In this document: positions 831 to 10,884 of the stretch, in pieces | Layout of the letters: each line of letters starts with the position of its first letter | How positions within the stretch are numbered: position 1 is the first letter of the stretch | Program-made: the position numbers and the translations under genes | DNA from: Pseudomonadota bacterium | GTDB lineage: Bacteria > Bdellovibrionota > Bdellovibrionia > Bdellovibrionales > JAEYZS01 | Assembly (NCBI GenBank): GCA_023427925.1 | Contig: JAEYZS010000060.1 | Coordinates: 1-12,081, forward strand | Direction of reading: 5' to 3' | DNA length: 12,081 nucleotides | Notes under the pieces: generated by a model | What the model was told of the DNA's origin: nothing | Database searches by the model: none | The model's input: only the letters and a program-made list of their open reading frames with translations

Positions 831-1940
831 ATGGATAATTATTTTAACCCTTCCGAATTAAAATCCAAAGTCTCAAGCTTTTATACAAGGCATGAAACTC
901 ACTTAATGATCGCATTCTTTATTGGTGGATTTCTATTCGACTTGATCACTCTGACTGATCCAGACGATTGGTTTTCGATTCTCCAGCAAGCGGTTTACCT
1001 GACTATTATCGGATGCACTCTTTATTTTGACGTTTTAAACTCTTTTCAAAAAATACAAATTCCTGAAAGGCTTCAGAAACTTTGGGAATATCGGCAACTT
1101 CTCGTCCACTTTCTTTTTGGATCTCTATTGAGTATTTATTCTATATACTATTTTAAAAGTTCATCACTTTTAAGTTCTTTTGTTTTTATTTTCATAATGA
1201 GCGCAATCCTTATAGGAAACGAACTTTCTCGCGTCCAAAATGCAGGCCACTGGCTAAAGTTTGGAATGTTTATTCTTTGCCTGAATGCGTTTTTCTCTAC
1301 AATTTACCCAACTCTACTAGGGTTCATCGGACTTGTTCCATTCTTACTAGCGGTGCTTTCGTCCATCGGCTGCGCCTATTTTTTATTCAAAAAAATATTA
1401 CCAAAAGAAATCGAAAAGGCTTTTGTTCAAAAACAGTTGTTTATGCCGATCGTTGTCGTTCAAGCTGCATTTGTTATTCTTTACTTCATCGGTTGGATTC
1501 CGCCAGTACCCGTTTCTGCCAAATTCATGGGTATCTATCATAACGTTGAAAAGAAAGATAATAAGTATCTCCTCTATCATCAAAAGCCCTTTTGGAAATT
1601 CTGGGCTAACGGAGATCAAACATTCCGAGCTCAGTACGGAGACAATATTTATTTTTTCACAAATATTTATTCTCCCGCGCGATTTTCTGATCAAATCAAT
1701 ATCCGATGGATGCAAAAAGATCCAATTCGCGGATGGACGACGTGGGATTTAATTTCGATGAAGATCGCAGGCGGCAGGGAAGATGGTTTCAGAGGATTCA
1801 CTTATAAATCAAAATATCTTCCCGGTGAATGGAGAGTCATCGCCGAAACGACCGACGGAAGAGAGATCGGTAGAATTTATTTTACGGTCATTGAAGAAGA
1901 AGCCGGTCTACCGAGAGAATTTCAGATTGACGAAAAATAA
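831..1940 (+). CDS. DUF2914 domain-containing polytopic membrane protein
   Basis: This 369-residue protein has about seven hydrophobic helices (roughly residues 24-43, 50-68, 88-108, 113-130, 140-160, 163-187 and 203-222). A soluble C-terminal domain follows (about 235-355). That domain carries the pattern I associate with DUF2914: W(F)..G at 257-261, IYFFTNIY at 273-280, RGWTTWDL at 300-307, the GGREDGFR segment at 314-321, and GEWRVIAETTDGREIGRI at 332-349. The family role is not established. Its architecture, a membrane bundle carrying a small beta-rich domain, suggests a sensory or envelope function; that is inference. The ATG at 831 has only a weak GGA upstream, so the start is less secure than the frame. 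Its 3' end overlaps the ATP-grasp gene by 14 bases, pointing to a two-gene operon with coupled translation. Confidence 0.85.
   Translation: MDNYFNPSELKSKVSSFYTRHETHLMIAFFIGGFLFDLITLTDPDDWFSILQQAVYLTIIGCTLYFDVLNSFQKIQIPERLQKLWEYRQLLVHFLFGSLLSIYSIYYFKSSSLLSSFVFIFIMSAILIGNELSRVQNAGHWLKFGMFILCLNAFFSTIYPTLLGFIGLVPFLLAVLSSIGCAYFLFKKILPKEIEKAFVQKQLFMPIVVVQAAFVILYFIGWIPPVPVSAKFMGIYHNVEKKDNKYLLYHQKPFWKFWANGDQTFRAQYGDNIYFFTNIYSPARFSDQINIRWMQKDPIRGWTTWDLISMKIAGGREDGFRGFTYKSKYLPGEWRVIAETTDGREIGRIYFTVIEEEAGLPREFQIDEK
1913..1918 (+). promoter_or_regulatory. Ribosome binding site for the TTG-started ATP-grasp gene
   Basis: GAGAGA, inside the end of the DUF2914 gene, lies 8 bases before the TTG at 1927. It is the main sequence support for that start codon. 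Confidence 0.5.
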
Positions 1941-3024
1941 GTCCGTACTTTTTATTGGAAAAAGACTTGAGGCAATTAAGACGGCGGTCGAGCTGGGTTT
2001 CGAAACTCATGTTCTAAGCTTCAAAAAACCTAAATTCAAATCCAAAAATTACTCCGAAATATTATTTACAGGAAATTATGATGTCATCAAGGGAATGTCT
2101 TTCGATGCCATCATTCCACTTACGGAAAAATCCATACCCATCGCTAAAAATATTTTTGACCAATTAAACTCTAAAAAACCTGACGTACAAAAATATTCTC
2201 TATGTCATGACAAATACGAGATGAAGTTGCACGCACAAAAACATCGTATTCCAATTTCTGATTTTATGTTGATTGGCGAAGAAACAACTCCAGATGATCT
2301 CATAGCAAAACTAGGTTTTCCAATTGTACTTAAACACCGCGATAGGTCCGGAAGCAGAGGTCTGACAACTGCAGAGTTCAAAAGTGAGCTTTCATTAGCT
2401 CAGCCCAACATGCTGGCCGAAAAATATATTGAAGGGAAAGAATACAGTGTTGAAACTCTCGTTAAAGACGGTGAGATAGTATTCACAAACATCACCGACT
2501 ACTTTGTTCATCACACTTGCAATATAGTTCCAGCGAATCTTTCAGCCTTAGAACAATCACGATTGTTGAAACTCAACCAAGAAGTCACCAAGGCATTTGG
2601 AATTATGAATGGAATTGCGCACGCGGAGTATTACCTAGGCAAAAATCAAATCACATTTGGTGAAATCGCAGTACGACCTCCTGGCGGGTATATCATGAAA
2701 CTGATTGAACAGTCCTACGGATTTAACCCCTGGGAAGCACTCCTACAAATTGAACTAGGCCATGTACCGACAATCACAAAAACTCCGAGCGCTTACTCGG
2801 CTACTTGGATATTACATCCGGGGGAAGGTACTTTGGAAAGTGAGCCAGATTTTTCTCCACTCCTGACCGATCCTAATTTAATCGATATCCAATCAGGTTT
2901 AAAAACAGGGATGATCATAAAGCGCAGAGAAGGATCGGGAGAAGATTTTGGTCGGATACTTTTGAAGTCATCAGACTTCGCACAACTGCTCTCGACTATT
3001 CATAAGACCAGGAAGTGTCTTTGA
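1927..3024 (+). CDS. ATP-grasp domain ligase of unknown substrate
   Basis: From the TTG at 1927 this encodes 365 residues. The order is that of the biotin carboxylase/PurK-like ATP-grasp fold: an N-terminal Rossmann-type pre-grasp domain opening with VLFIGKRLEAIKTA; DKYEMK at 95-100; the nucleotide-binding strand PIVLKHRDRSGSRG at 132-145 with Lys135; the AEKYIEGKEYSVE segment at 164-176; and the metal-binding GEIAVRPPGG at 245-254. The EIA.RP form, in place of EINPR, also occurs in PurK, so catalysis is not ruled out. Such enzymes join a carboxylate to an amine or thiol through an acyl-phosphate; the substrate cannot be read from the sequence. In-frame codons extend back to an ATG at 1783. 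That would add 48 residues lying wholly within the upstream gene, ahead of the natural first beta strand, so TTG is preferred. Overlap with DUF2914 suggests coupled expression. Confidence 0.85.
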   Translation: MTKNKSVLFIGKRLEAIKTAVELGFETHVLSFKKPKFKSKNYSEILFTGNYDVIKGMSFDAIIPLTEKSIPIAKNIFDQLNSKKPDVQKYSLCHDKYEMKLHAQKHRIPISDFMLIGEETTPDDLIAKLGFPIVLKHRDRSGSRGLTTAEFKSELSLAQPNMLAEKYIEGKEYSVETLVKDGEIVFTNITDYFVHHTCNIVPANLSALEQSRLLKLNQEVTKAFGIMNGIAHAEYYLGKNQITFGEIAVRPPGGYIMKLIEQSYGFNPWEALLQIELGHVPTITKTPSAYSATWILHPGEGTLESEPDFSPLLTDPNLIDIQSGLKTGMIIKRREGSGEDFGRILLKSSDFAQLLSTIHKTRKCL

Positions 3025-3061: not shown

Positions 3062-3073
3062 TAACAATTGTTA
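3062..3073. repeat. Perfect 12-bp palindrome TAACAATTGTTA
   Basis: This self-complementary 12-mer lies in the 166-base leader region ahead of the stator-like operon, about 118 bases before its start codon. It has the size and symmetry of a dimeric-regulator half-site pair. No sigma-70 promoter with both boxes at good spacing was found near it (TATAAA at 3053-3058 is the best -10-like word), so the operator role is speculative. Confidence 0.35.
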
Positions 3074-3190: not shown

Positions 3191-4864
3191 ATGGCATTTA
3201 ACTACGAAAAAAATAAAAATAATGAAGGAAACGATAGTTTTTGGACATCGTACTCAGATTTATTTTTAGGCTTGAGTACAATATTTTTGCTTTTGTATGT
3301 TATGGCAAGCCTCCGCACCGGAACCGATGCAATCAAGAACCATTCCGACAATCAAAAACTTACACAGAGAGTTGAAGAACTTCAGAATCAGCTCAAGATG
3401 TATGAGTCTGCCAAAAATCAATACATGAATGATGCGCCCAAAACAGAACAGCAAGAATATCAAGAGTTAATGGATAAACTTACGCTATTACAAGAGGAGG
3501 CTAAGTCTGAAAAAGAAAGACTTGCTCAAGAAGCCCTTGAAAATGGCAAAAAAGCTCAAGCACTCAACAAATACCAACAGATGATTCGAAATATTATTGA
3601 TGCAAACAAGGTCGCTAAATCACGCATCATTACTAGAAATGAAATTATCGATGAACAAGACATTAAGATAGATGAGCAACAACAAAACATAAGCAGTTTA
3701 GAAAGTGAAATTGTTCAAAAGCAACAAATGATCGAAAGCAACAACAAGCAGATTGCACAAAGCAAAGCTATTCTCGACAAGAGAATGAAACAGCTTCAAG
3801 CTGCGTTAAAGAAAAACAAAATGACAAAGGCCGCCTACAATAAACAGGTTAAAGCTATTCAAGATGAAAATAATAAGAAGCTTGCCTCACTTCAGTCTGC
3901 AAATCAGGCTTATACACAACAATTAAATCAGGCCAGCCAACAATTATCACAACTTAACGCCGAACTCGAGGGAACTCAGGCCCAGCTTTCCCAAAAAACT
4001 CAGGAAGCGTCTAGCTTACAAGCTCAGCTTTCTGAAGCCGAAAGTGTAGCTCAAGGACTCAAGGGACAAATTGGCAATCTCAAATCCGAATTCGCTCGAC
4101 AGCAAGCTGCTGATAGAAAAGCATTCGAAGCACAGATGGGAAAACTTAAACTCACTGCCGCACAGAAGGCTGCAAGAGAGGCTAAGTTTAGAGCAGATGC
4201 CGAAGGCAAAGCCAGAGCGCTTCAATCGAAAGTCGCAGGTCTTGAAGGACAACTGGCCGCGACCGAGGGTGACCTTGCACGAGCAAAAGCTGAAATGGAC
4301 ACAAGAAGAGCAATTGCTCGCGAAATCAAATCGGGATTTGCTAAAGCCGGTGTAAAAGCCGATATTGACATGCAAACGGGCGATGTGATTCTAGATTTTG
4401 GCGACGCATACTTTGAAAGCAACTCAGCAAATCTTAAGCCCGAGATGAAATCAATAATAGAAAGGGCAATGCCAATCTACTCGAAATCTCTGTTTGGAAA
4501 CCCTAAGGTGGCGAACCAAATTAAGGACGTTGAGATCGTTGGTTTTGCATCGCCAACATACCAGGGACGATACATTGATCCGCGAAGCACAAAGCCTGAA
4601 GACAAGGCTGCTTTGAAGTACAACATGGATTTAAGTTATCAACGTGCCAATGCAATATTTAAACATTTAGTCGATGGAAAAGTCCCGAACTTTAATAATC
4701 AACAACAATTAATGTCATTGATGAAGGTTTCGGGACGAAGTTTCTTGGATGTTATGAATGTCCAAAACAGAAATATCTCATCCGCCGCTGAGTTTTGCAA
4801 AGTCAATGATTGCAAAAAGGCTCAACGCGTGATCGTGAGATTTAGCGTAGATGGTAGAAAATAA
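3191..4864 (+). CDS. MotB/ZorB-like stator protein with long coiled coil and OmpA-like domain
   Basis: This 557-residue protein has three parts. Residues 17-40 (FWTSYSDLFLGLSTIFLLLYV) form one transmembrane helix with Asp23 at the position of the proton-carrying Asp of MotB and ZorB proteins. Residues about 50-385 are Gln, Lys, Glu and Ala-rich with few helix breakers (a single Pro, at 83) and read as a very long coiled coil. Residues about 395-555 are OmpA-like, with FGDAYFESNSANLKPE and the helix N..LSYQRANAIFKHL (Arg485). The usual GHTD loop is replaced by GFASPTYQGR, and Cys536 and Cys541 could form a disulfide. Topology would be N-in, C-periplasmic, binding peptidoglycan. The start was set by the AAGGT site and by the N-terminal sequence; the 41 possible upstream residues look non-coding. 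It is the first gene of a three-gene operon with a TolQ/MotA-like channel and an FHA protein. Classical MotB and TolR lack such a long coiled coil. Confidence 0.85.
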   Translation: MAFNYEKNKNNEGNDSFWTSYSDLFLGLSTIFLLLYVMASLRTGTDAIKNHSDNQKLTQRVEELQNQLKMYESAKNQYMNDAPKTEQQEYQELMDKLTLLQEEAKSEKERLAQEALENGKKAQALNKYQQMIRNIIDANKVAKSRIITRNEIIDEQDIKIDEQQQNISSLESEIVQKQQMIESNNKQIAQSKAILDKRMKQLQAALKKNKMTKAAYNKQVKAIQDENNKKLASLQSANQAYTQQLNQASQQLSQLNAELEGTQAQLSQKTQEASSLQAQLSEAESVAQGLKGQIGNLKSEFARQQAADRKAFEAQMGKLKLTAAQKAAREAKFRADAEGKARALQSKVAGLEGQLAATEGDLARAKAEMDTRRAIAREIKSGFAKAGVKADIDMQTGDVILDFGDAYFESNSANLKPEMKSIIERAMPIYSKSLFGNPKVANQIKDVEIVGFASPTYQGRYIDPRSTKPEDKAALKYNMDLSYQRANAIFKHLVDGKVPNFNNQQQLMSLMKVSGRSFLDVMNVQNRNISSAAEFCKVNDCKKAQRVIVRFSVDGRK

Positions 4865-4867
4865 AGT

Positions 4868-4888
4868 GCGATGACAATCGCAAATTGT
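4868..4888 (+). repeat. Two mutually exclusive small hairpins between the stator genes
   Basis: GCGAT-GACA-ATCGC (4868-4881) forms a 5-bp stem with a tetraloop. ACAAT-CGCAA-ATTGT (4874-4888) forms an alternative 5-bp stem that uses some of the same bases. Both end just before the strong ribosome site at 4889-4895. They could set relative translation or mRNA processing between the two genes. The stems are short, so this is tentative. Confidence 0.3.
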
Positions 4889-4895
4889 GAAGGGG
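4889..4895 (+). promoter_or_regulatory. Strong ribosome binding site of the MotA/TolQ-like gene
   Basis: GAAGGGG lies 7 bases before the ATG at 4903. It is the best Shine-Dalgarno match of the operon, which fits channel subunits being made in excess over their partner, as in 5:2 motors of this superfamily. Confidence 0.65.
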
Positions 4896-4902
4896 AAATA
4901 TT

Positions 4903-5832
4903 ATGACAACTAAACTCGTAGCCGAATATTTTATTCTAGGCTTACCGTATGCCATGGGAGTGATCTTCCTTTTAGGAGTCTCTTTCAGAGCATTAGTTTG
5001 GTACACAGTAAAAAGACACGAATGGTTTTCAAGAGAATTTGAAAAACGCGTTAACAAATTTATTGATAACGAAGTGCCTGGCGCTGTTCATAACGTATCT
5101 TTTTATGTTCTAGCAAAAAGAATTTTAGAAAGAACTTTTTACGAAGCGTTTGCAGTACGAGATAGAACAAGCAGACGCAAAAACGACGGAATCATGAAAA
5201 CGAGCGATCGTATATTCCTTGTGAAACAAGGTTGTGCTTGGTTAGTTCGTGATATTCTTAAGCAGTTGAAATTTTTAAAATGGTCAGAGGATAATCCTAA
5301 ATTACTAAATATCACCAAGGCAACATTCCACCACAATCCTTGCTTTAATAGAGTTTTCGGATTGATTCCAATCACAGGTCTAAACGACCTTATTAATATT
5401 CTTCCCGGATTATTTGTTATCGGAGGTATCCTAGGTACATTTGTTGGTATTGCTGGTGGTCTTGAAGGATTGGGTGGTATGAACCTCCAAGATGTCGATA
5501 ACACGAAAAACATTATGGATAGATTCCTTTATGAAATTTCATTTGCAATGAAGACATCTATCGCAGGGATTTTATTTTCTTTGATGTCTCACATTGTAAA
5601 CGTTCTTCTTTCTCCAGAGAGAGCCTATGTATCTATGATTGATAGATTTGAAAGCTCTTTAGATCTTTTGTGGTACAGAAGTGACAACAATACCTACCCT
5701 GCAGTTGAAGCAGCGTTTGATGAGCATAGAGATCCACTTGAGGCTTTAGCTGAAGACGCTGTTAACAGCGAACTGGGTACGCAAACTCGAGGTCGCGAAA
5801 TGACGAAAACTCGTCCGTTCAAAGCCTCTTAA
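4903..5832 (+). CDS. MotA/TolQ/ExbB/ZorA-like proton channel subunit
   Basis: This 309-residue inner-membrane protein has three predicted helices: about residues 9-33, 162-185 (NDLINILPGLFVIGGILGTF and following VGIAGG), and 214-236 (FAMKTSIAGILFSLMSHIV). A cytoplasmic stretch of about 125 residues separates helices 1 and 2. The LPGL...GILGTFVGI signature and the TSIAGI..SL pattern in the last helix are typical of the MotA/TolQ/ExbB superfamily. The three-helix layout matches TolQ/ExbB rather than four-helix MotA, and the LPG..GTF.GI wording recalls ZorA. It would form a pentameric ring around the MotB-like partner encoded 38 bases upstream, passing protons past that protein's Asp23. The C-terminal tail (about 240-309) is short and polar, unlike the long tail of Zorya ZorA. 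The following FHA gene begins 12 bases after its stop. Confidence 0.85.
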   Translation: MTTKLVAEYFILGLPYAMGVIFLLGVSFRALVWYTVKRHEWFSREFEKRVNKFIDNEVPGAVHNVSFYVLAKRILERTFYEAFAVRDRTSRRKNDGIMKTSDRIFLVKQGCAWLVRDILKQLKFLKWSEDNPKLLNITKATFHHNPCFNRVFGLIPITGLNDLINILPGLFVIGGILGTFVGIAGGLEGLGGMNLQDVDNTKNIMDRFLYEISFAMKTSIAGILFSLMSHIVNVLLSPERAYVSMIDRFESSLDLLWYRSDNNTYPAVEAAFDEHRDPLEALAEDAVNSELGTQTRGREMTKTRPFKAS

Positions 5833-5834
5833 TC

Positions 5835-5840
5835 GTGGAG
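5835..5840 (+). promoter_or_regulatory. Ribosome binding site of the FHA-domain gene
   Basis: GTGGAG lies 4 bases before the ATG at 5845, within the 12-base gap after the channel gene. It supports both the start codon and polycistronic expression. Confidence 0.6.
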
Positions 5841-5844
5841 TTAA

Positions 5845-8235
5845 ATGGGAGATACTAAGTTATCCGTACAGGTCCACATCACTATTGATGGAGCTAAGAC
5901 CCATAAAAAGGTCAAGAAGGATAGCTTTACTCTCGGACGTCATGCAGATTGTGACGTCAATGTTCTTCACCCTCAAGTCAGCCGTAAACATCTCGAAGTT
6001 TCCATTAAAGACGAAAGAATATTTATCGAAGACACGGGTTCGTCTAATGGAACATTCTTGAATTCCAACAGAATTCCGCCAAAGCAACTCCATGAACTTT
6101 GCGCTGATGATATGCTTCAATTTGGTGAAGAAGGTCCAATCATTCAGATTGAAATTGAAGAGAGAAAAACAAGCACTACCCTATCCAAACTCTCAAGATT
6201 AGAATCTATAATTTCGCCAATAATAAATCACATCGGTGATAAGCATGGAGATGGCAAAAGCACAATTGATGCGAAGGCTCTACCACCGAAACCCATAGAG
6301 CAAGAGCCCGCTTCACCTAAGGTAGTACAAGTTAAGGGCAACTCGACTTTGCCGGAACCACCAAAGGCAGGACAAGGGCTTCCTTCTACATTGGTCCACG
6401 ATCCGTTTTCGGAACCATTATCTGCGCAAGCCAACAAAAGCGAACAAGTTATCGAAGCCAACAAGCAAGCGGCCATGATATTACAAAAAGCCGAACTTGA
6501 AGCTGAGCAAAAGGCTCAAGAAGCTCATAAGCGAGCATTAGAAATTGAAGAACGGGCGGAAGAAATTTACAAGGAACGCATCAAAGCTTCCACAGTTGAT
6601 GCCACAAAGCTATTTGAAGAAGCGCGCGAAGAGTCTACAAAGTTTCTTCAAGAAGCTCGCGCACAAGCCCAAGCCATTCGAGAAAAAGCAGAACAAGACG
6701 TGCGTGAGCTCAAAAAAAGTGCTGAAGAAAAAATCACACAGCTCATAAAAGAAGCTGAGGAAGATACCAAAGCGCTAAGAAGAGAAAGTGAAGAAAAAGG
6801 TTCTCAATATGTCAAGGCCGCTGAACAAGACGCAAAAAATCTGAGAAAAGATGCTGAAGAAAAAGCGGCATCTATTTTAAAGGAAGCTGAAAAAGATGGA
6901 GCCGCAATTAAAGCCAAAAGACTTTCTGAGGCCGATGATATCATAGAGAAAAAGGGTCAAGACCTTCTCAAAGAGACTCATGAGAAAATCCAAAAAGAAA
7001 AGAATGCTGCATTAAAAAATCTAGATTCACTAAAAGCGCAATCTTCTCGACTTAGAGAAGAGAATGCAAAAAGTGAAACCGAGCTTAAGGCACTCGAAGG
7101 TAAAATCTCGGACCTTAAGAAGCAGGCCAATCAGGACGGAGCCGAAGCCGAATCTAAAAAATCTTTACTGGAAAAGTATCGCTCTGACGAAAAAGACCTT
7201 TCCAAAAAGCTTGAACAGCTCAAAAAAGAAACTCATGAACATGAGATGACTCAACAAAAGCTCAAATCCGAGTTTGAGAAACTCAATATCTCGATTTCAG
7301 CATTGAAAAGTGAAAAAGAAGAAAAAGAAAAAGAAATCAATGCTCAGTTGCAAGCCTTAAAGAACAAAGTCGATGAAGAAAAAGATGCTCTTGCGAAAGC
7401 AGAAACTGAAAGAATGAATCAGTTAAAGCTTGAAACTGCAGAAGCACTTAAAAAGTTTGAACAGGAACTCATCGATGAAATCACAAGCCGCAAAATACAG
7501 CTTACCAAAGAAGTTATGCTGCAAATTGAGTCCAAGTGCCCAGGTATCGCTCTGACCGACGAATGGAAGAATCATCAGACAGAATTGAGAACAGTAATTC
7601 AAGATATTATTGGAAACGCAGACCAAGCCTCGGCAAAGAAAGTTATCGATGCGAAAGGCAAAAGAAGGTTTTCTACTCGAACGAGAGAAAAAACATTTTC
7701 GATGGCTTTGGGTCTATGTATGGGTATTTTAGCAGTTTTTGGTGGTCAAGAAATCAAACAATATATGGAAGGGTCTTCCCCTATTGAAAGAATGGTAGCT
7801 GGTGCCATTAACTCAGCTAAGGAAGACCTCGAAAAAAGAAAATATAAACCCAAGCAAGTTAAAGAAGTTAAAGACACTTATGTTGATGCAGTCATTTATA
7901 CGAAAGACTTCAGCAAACTTTATAACGATTCTAAGTTCCAAGAAGAATGGACAAAGGCTGCCACGTTATATCTCTTAAAGACCTGGAGGTTAGACGAAGA
8001 CGCCGCTACCCGCGCTCTTGCAAGTTCGGCAGCCCTTGTTAAAGATCTCACAGAGCGAAGAGAAAAGATTCACCCCGACTTCGTCAAAAGCGCAATCGAT
8101 AAAATGCGTGAAGCCGAAAAAGATACCATAGCCCGAATCAAAAAAGAGCTTGGCGGTGAAGTGAGATTTGAATCCTTTAAAAAATACGAAAAGCGTTTCT
8201 TCGAAAAATACGATCGCAAGCCTGCTACTGAATAA
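5845..8235 (+). CDS. FHA-domain, long coiled-coil, single-pass membrane protein
   Basis: This 796-residue protein begins with an FHA domain (about residues 5-105). It shows all the usual landmarks: FTLGR (28-32), SRKH (46-49) and SSNGTF (66-71), which hold phosphothreonine peptides. A Pro-rich linker (about 140-195) follows. Residues about 196-560 are a highly charged coiled coil, including an exact 11-residue repeat from 260 to about 358, then more heptad-like sequence. A hydrophobic stretch at about 617-635 (TFSMALGLCMGILAVFGG), preceded by KGKRRFSTRTREK, looks like a transmembrane helix with a cytoplasmic N-side. The last 155 residues are helical, rich in Lys and Glu, and match no family I recognise; they would face the periplasm. 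FHA placement implies control by a Ser/Thr kinase, which is not in this window. As last gene of the stator operon it is probably the cytoplasmic adaptor or regulator of that complex; this is inference. Confidence 0.8.
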   Translation: MGDTKLSVQVHITIDGAKTHKKVKKDSFTLGRHADCDVNVLHPQVSRKHLEVSIKDERIFIEDTGSSNGTFLNSNRIPPKQLHELCADDMLQFGEEGPIIQIEIEERKTSTTLSKLSRLESIISPIINHIGDKHGDGKSTIDAKALPPKPIEQEPASPKVVQVKGNSTLPEPPKAGQGLPSTLVHDPFSEPLSAQANKSEQVIEANKQAAMILQKAELEAEQKAQEAHKRALEIEERAEEIYKERIKASTVDATKLFEEAREESTKFLQEARAQAQAIREKAEQDVRELKKSAEEKITQLIKEAEEDTKALRRESEEKGSQYVKAAEQDAKNLRKDAEEKAASILKEAEKDGAAIKAKRLSEADDIIEKKGQDLLKETHEKIQKEKNAALKNLDSLKAQSSRLREENAKSETELKALEGKISDLKKQANQDGAEAESKKSLLEKYRSDEKDLSKKLEQLKKETHEHEMTQQKLKSEFEKLNISISALKSEKEEKEKEINAQLQALKNKVDEEKDALAKAETERMNQLKLETAEALKKFEQELIDEITSRKIQLTKEVMLQIESKCPGIALTDEWKNHQTELRTVIQDIIGNADQASAKKVIDAKGKRRFSTRTREKTFSMALGLCMGILAVFGGQEIKQYMEGSSPIERMVAGAINSAKEDLEKRKYKPKQVKEVKDTYVDAVIYTKDFSKLYNDSKFQEEWTKAATLYLLKTWRLDEDAATRALASSAALVKDLTERREKIHPDFVKSAIDKMREAEKDTIARIKKELGGEVRFESFKKYEKRFFEKYDRKPATE
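6622..6918 (+). repeat. Nine-unit hendecad (11-residue, 33-base) repeat in the FHA protein
   Basis: An A/S-[ER]-x core recurs at residues 260, 271, 282, 293, 304, 315, 326, 337 and 348, spaced exactly 11 residues apart: ARE, ARA, AEQ, AEE, AEE, SEE, AEQ, AEE, AEK. An 11-residue period favours a nearly straight or right-handed coiled coil. The period is conserved in protein but diverged in DNA, so the repeat is old. Confidence 0.8.
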
Positions 8236-9594: not shown

Positions 9595-10884
9595 GTGTCC
9601 AAAAACAAGAAGTTATTCAGTTTAGTTGCAGAGATCTCCACAGCAATTGTCGAGGCCCAAAAGCCAATTCAAATTTTGGATGCCATTAAATGGAAAGACG
9701 GTATCTTTGAACAATTTAAAAAATCCAATTTTAAAGAGCTTCCGCAAACGGATAAATCTTATTATTCAGATATACCTCTAAAATTTGATGCCAAATCCAA
9801 AATTCAGGAATTCGAAGAAATTCGAAAATTAATCGAAAAAAAAATCGGCAAGGCTGAACCTGTAGCTCAAATACTGTTACGCAACTGTAAGCAGTATGAG
9901 GATGTCGTAAGAATGCTCTTAGCGCGTGGAACTCTGGATTTTTACAAATACTCCAAAGATCTTTTTGGAAGCTCAAACGACGTCTTGTTAGACGGAAAAA
10001 CCAGCCTTATCGAAGCCGGAACGATGCTCAGTGAAATTTTAATTTTTATAGAAAATGCGGATCTTGGCGTGTGCTATCTCAAGAATATTCCTTCGGAAGA
10101 TGCTGTGGCATCACTTAATGATAGGTTAACAAACTATTTTCACGATACTGAAGTCACTGTCAAATTGGACGACGGAATTTTATCTGATGCAGCTGCTGGA
10201 TCAAATTATATAAAGATTAGACCAAATCTCATGTTTTCAGAGCGCGATATAGACATATTTGAAGTCCACGAAGGCTGGGTTCATGTCGGAACAACGCTCA
10301 ACGGGACAAACCAGCCGTTTGCCAAATGGCTCTCCAAAGGACCACCTTGCACAACGTCCGCACAGGAGGGACTCGCTTTTCTATTAGAGGTATTTACGTT
10401 TGTCTGTACTCCGGAAAGACTCAAAAAAATCAATAATCGCCTTGTAGCCTGTGAAATGATTGAAAGTGGCGCAAACTTTAATCATGTTTTTAATTTTTTC
10501 AAAAATTTGAATCAGACTGATGAGCAAGCATTTAAGAATGCGCATCGCCTCTTCCGAGGCGGACTTACAACAGGGGGGGCGCCATTTACAAAGGATATTT
10601 CTTATTCGAAAGGGTTTATAGAAACCTATAACTTTATTAGAAGCTCAGTGAGAATTGGAAAGCCCGATATGATTCCCTTTCTGTTTTCCGGAAAAGTGAC
10701 TCTAGAAGATGTTCCAGTACTCTACGAATACTCCAAAGAAGGTCTTATCGAACGACCTAAATATTTACCTCCGCAGTTTAACGATCTCAATGGTATCGCC
10801 GTTTGGATGACTTTTTCAAACTTCCTGAATAAAATAAGCCTTGAAACTATTTCTAAAAATTTAAAGCAAGATATTAACAAATAA
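9595..10884 (+). CDS. DUF1704 'QEGLA' metallopeptidase-like protein
   Basis: This 429-residue protein starts at GTG 9595. It matches the family annotated as 'flavohemoglobin expression-modulating QEGLA motif protein' (DUF1704). Landmarks: VEAQKPIQILDAIKW near the N-terminus (19-33); H225-E-G-W-V-H230, an HExxxH metal motif; QEGLA at 257-261 with Glu258; and FRGG at 320-323 followed by FTKDISYSKGF at 331-341. Eukaryotic members of this family, the MATCAP/TMCP enzymes, are tubulin carboxypeptidases using HExxxH plus a downstream Glu; the same residues are present here, so the bacterial protein should bind zinc and may trim C-termini. Its substrate is unknown, and the flavohemoglobin label rests on old genetics. 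Only a weak AAAG precedes the GTG; the N-terminus matches the expected family start. It follows the PPC gene by one base (TAATGTG), suggesting re-initiation and a joint role. Confidence 0.87.
   Translation: MSKNKKLFSLVAEISTAIVEAQKPIQILDAIKWKDGIFEQFKKSNFKELPQTDKSYYSDIPLKFDAKSKIQEFEEIRKLIEKKIGKAEPVAQILLRNCKQYEDVVRMLLARGTLDFYKYSKDLFGSSNDVLLDGKTSLIEAGTMLSEILIFIENADLGVCYLKNIPSEDAVASLNDRLTNYFHDTEVTVKLDDGILSDAAAGSNYIKIRPNLMFSERDIDIFEVHEGWVHVGTTLNGTNQPFAKWLSKGPPCTTSAQEGLAFLLEVFTFVCTPERLKKINNRLVACEMIESGANFNHVFNFFKNLNQTDEQAFKNAHRLFRGGLTTGGAPFTKDISYSKGFIETYNFIRSSVRIGKPDMIPFLFSGKVTLEDVPVLYEYSKEGLIERPKYLPPQFNDLNGIAVWMTFSNFLNKISLETISKNLKQDINK

Follow-up and report, generated by a model that had tools for sequence, protein, structure and literature searches.

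Motors of the MotAB and ZorAB kind have a 5:2 make-up, conduct ions and rotate; the known tasks of their superfamily are swimming, gliding, work at the outer membrane and defence against phages. For the gliding machinery AglRQS-GltG, the accessible part of PMC3169522 describes GltG as a protein with a cytosolic FHA domain, one transmembrane (TM) helix and a periplasmic part ending in a TonB-type domain, which contacts AglR; it also describes Bdellovibrio as gliding and as having four agl-like clusters. The three genes compared here with these systems are read, with a probability of about 0.5, as encoding a motor of the ZorA/ZorB branch that is anchored in the cell wall and gated by a signal, with the third protein as its likely switch and a likely role in the attack phase.

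The trio lies in a window (the whole stretch of DNA analysed, 12,081 bases) as adjacent genes on the + strand. An ORF check confirms the three-gene stretch outlined in the preliminary description, with gaps of 38 bases between genes 1 and 2 and of 12 bases between genes 2 and 3, and with Shine–Dalgarno-like sites (Table 1). The mechanical ORF list begins gene 1 at a TTG (position 3068); the ATG was taken instead because the N-terminus is conserved among relatives. By hydropathy, genes 1 and 3 each have one TM helix and gene 2 has three (residues 10–28, 166–184 and 209–227). The claim that these genes form a true operon agrees with their conservation. In 91 of 93 loci compared, window included (the genomes G090, G104 and G183 contribute two loci each), gene 1 lies ≤500 bases upstream of gene 2 in the same order, the remaining two being contig edges. 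Judged from the sequences, this linkage exceeds chance, since the order holds down to 21% gene 2 identity with the window. The genes flanking the trio differ between lineages, and the unit itself is kept. Upstream of the trio, at 831–3024, lie a gene for a DUF2914 membrane protein and one for an ATP-grasp ligase, in different frames and sharing 158 bases; this pair is also found 5′ of the trio in L082. At 9595–10884 the window encodes a homologue of microtubule-associated tyrosine carboxypeptidase (MATCAP; Pfam E 6e-121) in a predatory bacterium; its QEGLA family score is just under the cut-off.

Table 1. Features of the three-gene unit (positions in the window)
Feature	Position	Strand	Basis
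Gene 1, 557 aa, ZorB-like anchor with Asp-bearing TM helix, long coiled coil and OmpA-like domain	3191..4864	+	profiles
Gene 1 TM helix FWTSYSDLFLGLSTIFLLL, residues 17–35	3239..3295	+	hydropathy; aligns with ZorB TM helix
Asp23 codon, predicted ion-binding residue	3257..3259	+	alignment with residue 26 (Asp) of chain 8qyd_F
Predicted periplasmic coiled coil of gene 1, residues ∼44–386, predicted turn 208–212	3320..4348	+	low-confidence model
OmpA-like domain of gene 1, residues 407–500, sub-threshold in Pfam	4409..4690	+	Pfam stretch
Peptidoglycan-binding-type motif NMDLSYQRA, residues 478–486	4622..4648	+	sequence
AAGGGG, Shine–Dalgarno-like, 5′ of gene 2	4890..4895	+	sequence
Gene 2, 309 aa, ZorA-like three-helix channel subunit without long tail	4903..5832	+	profiles, hydropathy, alignment, tree
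Thr179 (LGTFVG)	5437..5439	+	aligned with residue 147 (Thr) of E. coli ZorA
Ser219 (MKTSIAGI)	5557..5559	+	aligned with residue 184 (Ser) of E. coli ZorA
TGGAG, Shine–Dalgarno-like, 5′ of gene 3	5836..5840	+	sequence
Gene 3, 796 aa, FHA domain, coiled coil, TM helix and C-terminal helical domain	5845..8235	+	Pfam, hydropathy, model
FHA domain, residues 29–94	5929..6126	+	Pfam E 7e-18
Gene 3 single TM helix, residues 617–635	7693..7749	+	hydropathy
Gene 3 C-terminal helical domain, residues 670–789, predicted periplasmic	7852..8211	+	model

The first two products resemble the two subunits of the Zorya motor. PADLOC profiles match gene 1 as ZorB (E 3e-32) and gene 2 as ZorA (E 5e-11), values that indicate homology only. 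PDB profile matches of gene 1 include a ZorB-type chain (8vvi_A, E 1.4e-6) and E. coli ZorB (8qyd_F, E 1e-4). In a profile of 12 relatives, Asp23, in the context WTSYSDLF, falls on residue 26 of E. coli ZorB, and the C-terminal part aligns with the ZorB-type chain. The aspartate of the TM helix is kept in all 85 gene 1 relatives whose N-terminus can be read (79 by pattern, five by eye and L069 from hydropathy analysis). Pfam scores fall short of their cut-offs for the OmpA domain (22.7 bits against 27.2) and likewise for MotB_plug. An N.xLSxxRA-type motif, which we take to be of the peptidoglycan-binding kind of OmpA domains, is present in 89/92 gene 1 relatives. Its distance from the aspartate has a median of 865 residues (540–978) in the nine rows of the nucleotide branch (see below) with both found, and of 458.5 residues (395–585) in the other rows with both found. 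Gene 1 reaches 1758 aa in L075:10448-15724, where it is almost wholly coiled coil and three times as long as in the window. In L050, a stretch of ∼40 bases directly 5′ of gene 1 is tandemly doubled, and single in the related HD100-like locus.

The AlphaFold model of gene 1 (mean pLDDT 63.7) has helices 84–207 and 213–318 on either side of the predicted turn, so that the coiled coil is possibly a hairpin arm. In Foldseek, this low-confidence model resembles the hairpin coiled coils of EnvC (8tzl_E, probability 1.00, E 0.056) and of SMC arms (5xg2, probability 1.00, E 0.045), a likeness that would suit a motor-driven device for cell division or envelope constriction, similar to Tol-Pal or FtsEX-EnvC. 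Such a device is improbable: neither match reaches E 0.001, coiled coils match many proteins, and a comparison of flanks finds no division genes conserved beside the unit. A Rad50 match of the same model (E ≤ 0.001, TM 0.11) was set aside as a coiled-coil match without meaning.

The channel subunit, gene 2, largely escapes general profiles. With Pfam MotA_ExbB (PF01618; cut-off 22.9 bits), it scores 13.0 bits in the window and 18.1 bits in the HD100 copy; of the 10 PF01618 matches in the HD100-like genome, all but the gene 2 orthologue reach the cut-off. Standard annotation thus misses the motor, its HD100-like channel gene scoring too low. The NCBIfam ZorA profile matches with E 6.5e-11, far under its own cut-off. 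In an alignment made with a profile of 12 nucleotide-branch relatives of gene 2, Thr179 and Ser219 correspond to Thr147 and Ser184 of E. coli ZorA. Both are invariant in the 28 aligned gene 2 rows, and their sequence patterns recur in 92/93 (GTxxG) and 91/93 loci. The polar residues of TM helices 2 and 3 and the aspartate of the partner's TM helix, by which 5:2 motors are recognized, are therefore kept. The motor nature of genes 1 and 2 is thus predicted from homology and conserved residues, and the three-helix channel of the ZorA/TolQ kind and the Asp-bearing, OmpA-like anchor, both proposed at the outset, are borne out by hydropathy, ZorA and ZorB profiles and the aligned Asp, Thr and Ser. 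Among the best 120 of 947 matches at E ≤ 0.001, the nearest proteins to gene 2 come from Bdellovibrio and Bdellovibrionota MAGs. Two gene 2 matches (P0009 and L002) are labelled Actinobacteria or Actinomycetota and are most simply misbinned contigs. In L012:9995-10841, from a MAG, gene 2 is split into two frames (210 and 94 aa), either by a real break or by a sequencing error.

A tree of 50 sequences (28 gene 2 rows, eight ZorA-profile rows and 14 PF01618 paralogues from HD100 and G050, Agl types among them) unites the 28 gene 2 rows in a single clade (99/100), which branches among the eight ZorA-profile rows. The branch parting the gene 2 family and ZorA from the 14 paralogues has a support of 96/77; the tree has long branches and is read as unrooted. 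Within the family, 10 nucleotide-branch rows (99/100) and 14 FHA-side rows (97/99) form clades, the partner type being verified for 7/10 and 10/14 of them and the others being database proteins; the four loci without a third gene fall outside the FHA-side clade. The tree splits by partner type; therefore, the partner was apparently acquired or swapped, rather than fixed from the start.

Gene 3 begins with an intact FHA domain (65.2 bits against a cut-off of 20.7) and, as proposed earlier, has a membrane anchor of its own. The domain keeps the GR, SxxH and NG residues as GR, SRKH and SSNGT, presumably its signal-site residues. Among 69 FHA matches, 58 have the conserved pattern, and by eye at most four of those missing it look degenerate (L115, L118, L119 and L126). 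Because these four look degenerate, the C-terminal domain may outweigh phosphothreonine reading in some lineages. In relatives with a called TM helix, it lies 152–191 aa from the C-terminus, similar to its place in the window. The helical domain that follows is predicted with a pLDDT of 88–96 per ten-residue block over residues 670–789; it has no match in a PDB sequence search and none in Foldseek at E ≤ 0.001. A second FHA/coiled-coil protein of the gene 3 type (BLAST E 5e-10) lies upstream on the opposite strand in L010:5052-7775.

The layout of gene 3 recalls GltG, which likewise joins an FHA domain, one TM helix and a periplasmic part. The trio could accordingly energise gliding or the outer membrane like AglRQS-GltG, and simply happen to have subunits of the ZorAB type; the contact of GltG with AglR, and the gliding and agl-like clusters of Bdellovibrio, as given in the accessible part of PMC3169522, speak for it. 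The reading is nonetheless unlikely. Gene 2 stands outside the HD100 PF01618 paralogues, Agl types included; gene 1 has an OmpA-like domain and a long coiled coil; a Pfam scan finds no TonB domain in gene 3; and the flank comparison finds no GltC/D/E-like TPR genes conserved beside the unit.

The distribution of the unit bears on the part played by its third gene. With channel profile A2 (E ≤ 1e-5), 180 of 368 genomes of the phylum are matched and 188 are not, counted whatever their predator status or completeness; the single gene 2 sequence of the window, used as query, matched 41/114 genomes. There is usually one copy per genome, and the gene 1/gene 2 unit occurs in Bdellovibrio as well as in Bacteriovorax/Halobacteriovorax. 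As third gene, 72/93 loci have one of the FHA type (FHA with C-terminal domain 64, FHA alone or as a fragment 5, C-terminal domain alone 3), 15/93 have one for a cyclic-nucleotide-binding protein and 6/93 have none, counts that are no out-of-sample test, the third-gene profiles having been built partly from the same loci. A Pfam check found the nucleotide domain PF00027 in five of five scanned loci (E 1e-15 to 2e-21). FHA was checked in the same way in four third genes without a BLAST link to the others; three of five scanned ones have it, and L057 and L068 do not. The cyclic-nucleotide proteins (146–161 aa; 12 loci of a first set and three of a second) stand directly 3′ of gene 2 and all 15 keep the phosphate-site residues FGE...R. 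Named members of this nucleotide branch come from Bacteriovorax, Halobacteriovorax, one Bacteriovoracaceae MAG and one Oligoflexia MAG. In L010, from a MAG labelled Bacteriovoracaceae, the third gene is of the FHA type, so that label and partner type disagree there.

The C-terminal domain was not found anywhere in six nucleotide-branch genomes, nor in five of the six genomes without a third gene, and FHA-branch controls were positive. Because those five lack both, the predicted motor can exist without the third protein. In the sixth, the complete, Bdellovibrio-like genome G097, the FHA gene is in two pieces at two places: its first codons are in the operon (L083:10440-10577) and the rest lies far off on the other strand (L166:6382-8457), as if by a rearrangement or an assembly error with its breakpoint inside the gene. 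The preliminary description would have been refuted by an FHA gene that is usually absent; with 72/93 loci of the FHA type, the opposite is seen. The phospho-regulated motor of the preliminary description fits the FHA-type loci; given the 15 loci of the nucleotide type and the six with no third gene, phospho-regulation belongs to one branch, rather than to the motor as such.

With ZorA and ZorB as the nearest profiles, the trio could also serve phage defence in the manner of Zorya, its third protein standing in for the effectors ZorC/D/E. In PADLOC, the nucleotide domains of Pycsar effectors match the cyclic-nucleotide partner, but CRP matches it too. A PADLOC scan found no ZorC, ZorD or ZorE among nine proteins of the window or among ten neighbours scanned around the HD100 copy, in keeping with the earlier remark that a complete Zorya system is missing. 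The curated Zorya cut-offs are missed as well (ZorA best 41.9 of 100 bits, ZorB best 29.2 of 400 bits); for these reasons and for want of a long tail on gene 2, the trio was not classed as a Zorya system. The ZorA1 profile finds 51/368 genomes at E ≤ 1e-8. Eight strong matches, at eight places in eight genomes (E 1.7e-15 to 7.8e-57, open frames of 284–672 aa), start near the profile start and are genes separate from the gene 2 family, which accounts for the other matches (2.9e-12 or weaker, almost all at profile positions 125–254 only). Against a defence role also stand the wide retention of the unit in one phylum, in the same order and usually as one copy, the lack of any match in 72,556 plasmids or 50,697 phages, and the absence of nuclease or other killing domains from the scanned third proteins. 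Anti-phage defence is therefore quite unlikely.

For the signal-gated motor, a mechanism can be proposed by analogy with MotAB and ZorAB. Five gene 2 copies would surround two gene 1 copies, ions would pass at Asp23, and the gene 2 ring would turn about the peptidoglycan-anchored gene 1 dimer. The third protein would be an input (a clutch or switch), not a load, because two unrelated ligand-reading domains share one slot. Once the target of a threonine kinase is phosphorylated, the FHA end of gene 3 would bind it; coiled coil and TM helix would relay the signal to the helical domain on the far side of the membrane, which would then engage the motor or let it go. A cyclic nucleotide would take the place of phosphothreonine in the Bacteriovorax branch, with the same effect. 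The force may act on the envelope of the predator itself while it is free and in its attack phase, for surface movement or prey entry; this cell-level role is the weakest step.

Evidence on the attack phase comes from HD100. In the HD100-like genome G078, the seventh gene after gene 3 is of the L,D-transpeptidase type, and Bd1176 is an L,D-transpeptidase according to the accessible parts of PMC12546842 and PMC10482364. Counting back from it, genes 1, 2 and 3 would be Bd1167, Bd1168 and Bd1169. A second L,D-transpeptidase-type gene, at 1,124,619 in G078, competes for the tag Bd1176; the first is preferred because agl cluster spacing with known tags fits better. In the accessible part of an array study, Bd1167 is the only one of the three named as down-regulated and is reported as an attack-phase gene, and Bd1168 is used as a gene unchanged in host-independent growth. 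The former fits an attack-phase role for gene 1, as one array result on a tag obtained by counting. The accessible text of the Tn-seq paper gives no predation phenotype for Bd1167–1169, and the main text of PMC12546842 does not mention them. It is tempting to go further and propose that a private ZorAB-type motor with exchangeable control subunits powers prey attack, the first of its branch in predation and not phage defence, a proposal that is rather doubtful. In a branch kept within a phylum of predators, the exchanged control subunits would offer a natural comparison of motor gating, and the unit would be a testable candidate for a force-generating step of bacterial predation.

Among known systems, the YscD-type secretion ring protein (PF16697) resembles gene 3 in having a single TM helix after an FHA-type domain; the profile match (E 5e-11) exceeds the cut-off and covers the same stretch as the FHA match. 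It differs by the hundreds of coiled-coil residues before the TM helix of gene 3 and by the helical C-terminal domain, and the flank comparison finds no secretion genes conserved beside the unit. Flagellar MotAB likewise joins an ion channel subunit to an anchor that bears an Asp and an OmpA-like domain. MotA has four TM helices, whereas three are predicted in gene 2; this, the long coiled coil of gene 1 and the lack of conserved flagellar genes in the flank comparison led to the rejection of a MotAB identity, and the view that the trio is neither flagellar MotAB nor Tol/Ton is supported. Zorya ZorA/ZorB (E. coli, PDB 8qyd and others) is alike in the three-helix channel, the aligned Thr and Ser, the best profile matches and, for gene 1, the Asp-bearing TM helix and OmpA-like domain. 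It is unlike in that gene 2 covers only ∼130 residues of the ZorA profile and lacks the long cytoplasmic tail (its last TM helix ends at residue 227 of 309), that gene 1 adds hundreds of residues of coiled coil, and that the ZorB-like gene precedes the ZorA-like one. AglRQS-GltG of Myxococcus and Bdellovibrio shares the association of a TolQ-type motor with an FHA protein of one TM helix, and differs in a channel subunit from another branch of the tree, in the TonB-type end in place of the helical domain of gene 3, and in the OmpA-like anchor that gene 1 provides. To call the trio a new system, as was initially done, is thus too strong: in the tree its core belongs to the ZorA side, as a divergent branch, and AglRQS-GltG, as the accessible part of PMC3169522 describes it, already pairs an FHA protein with a TolQ-type motor.
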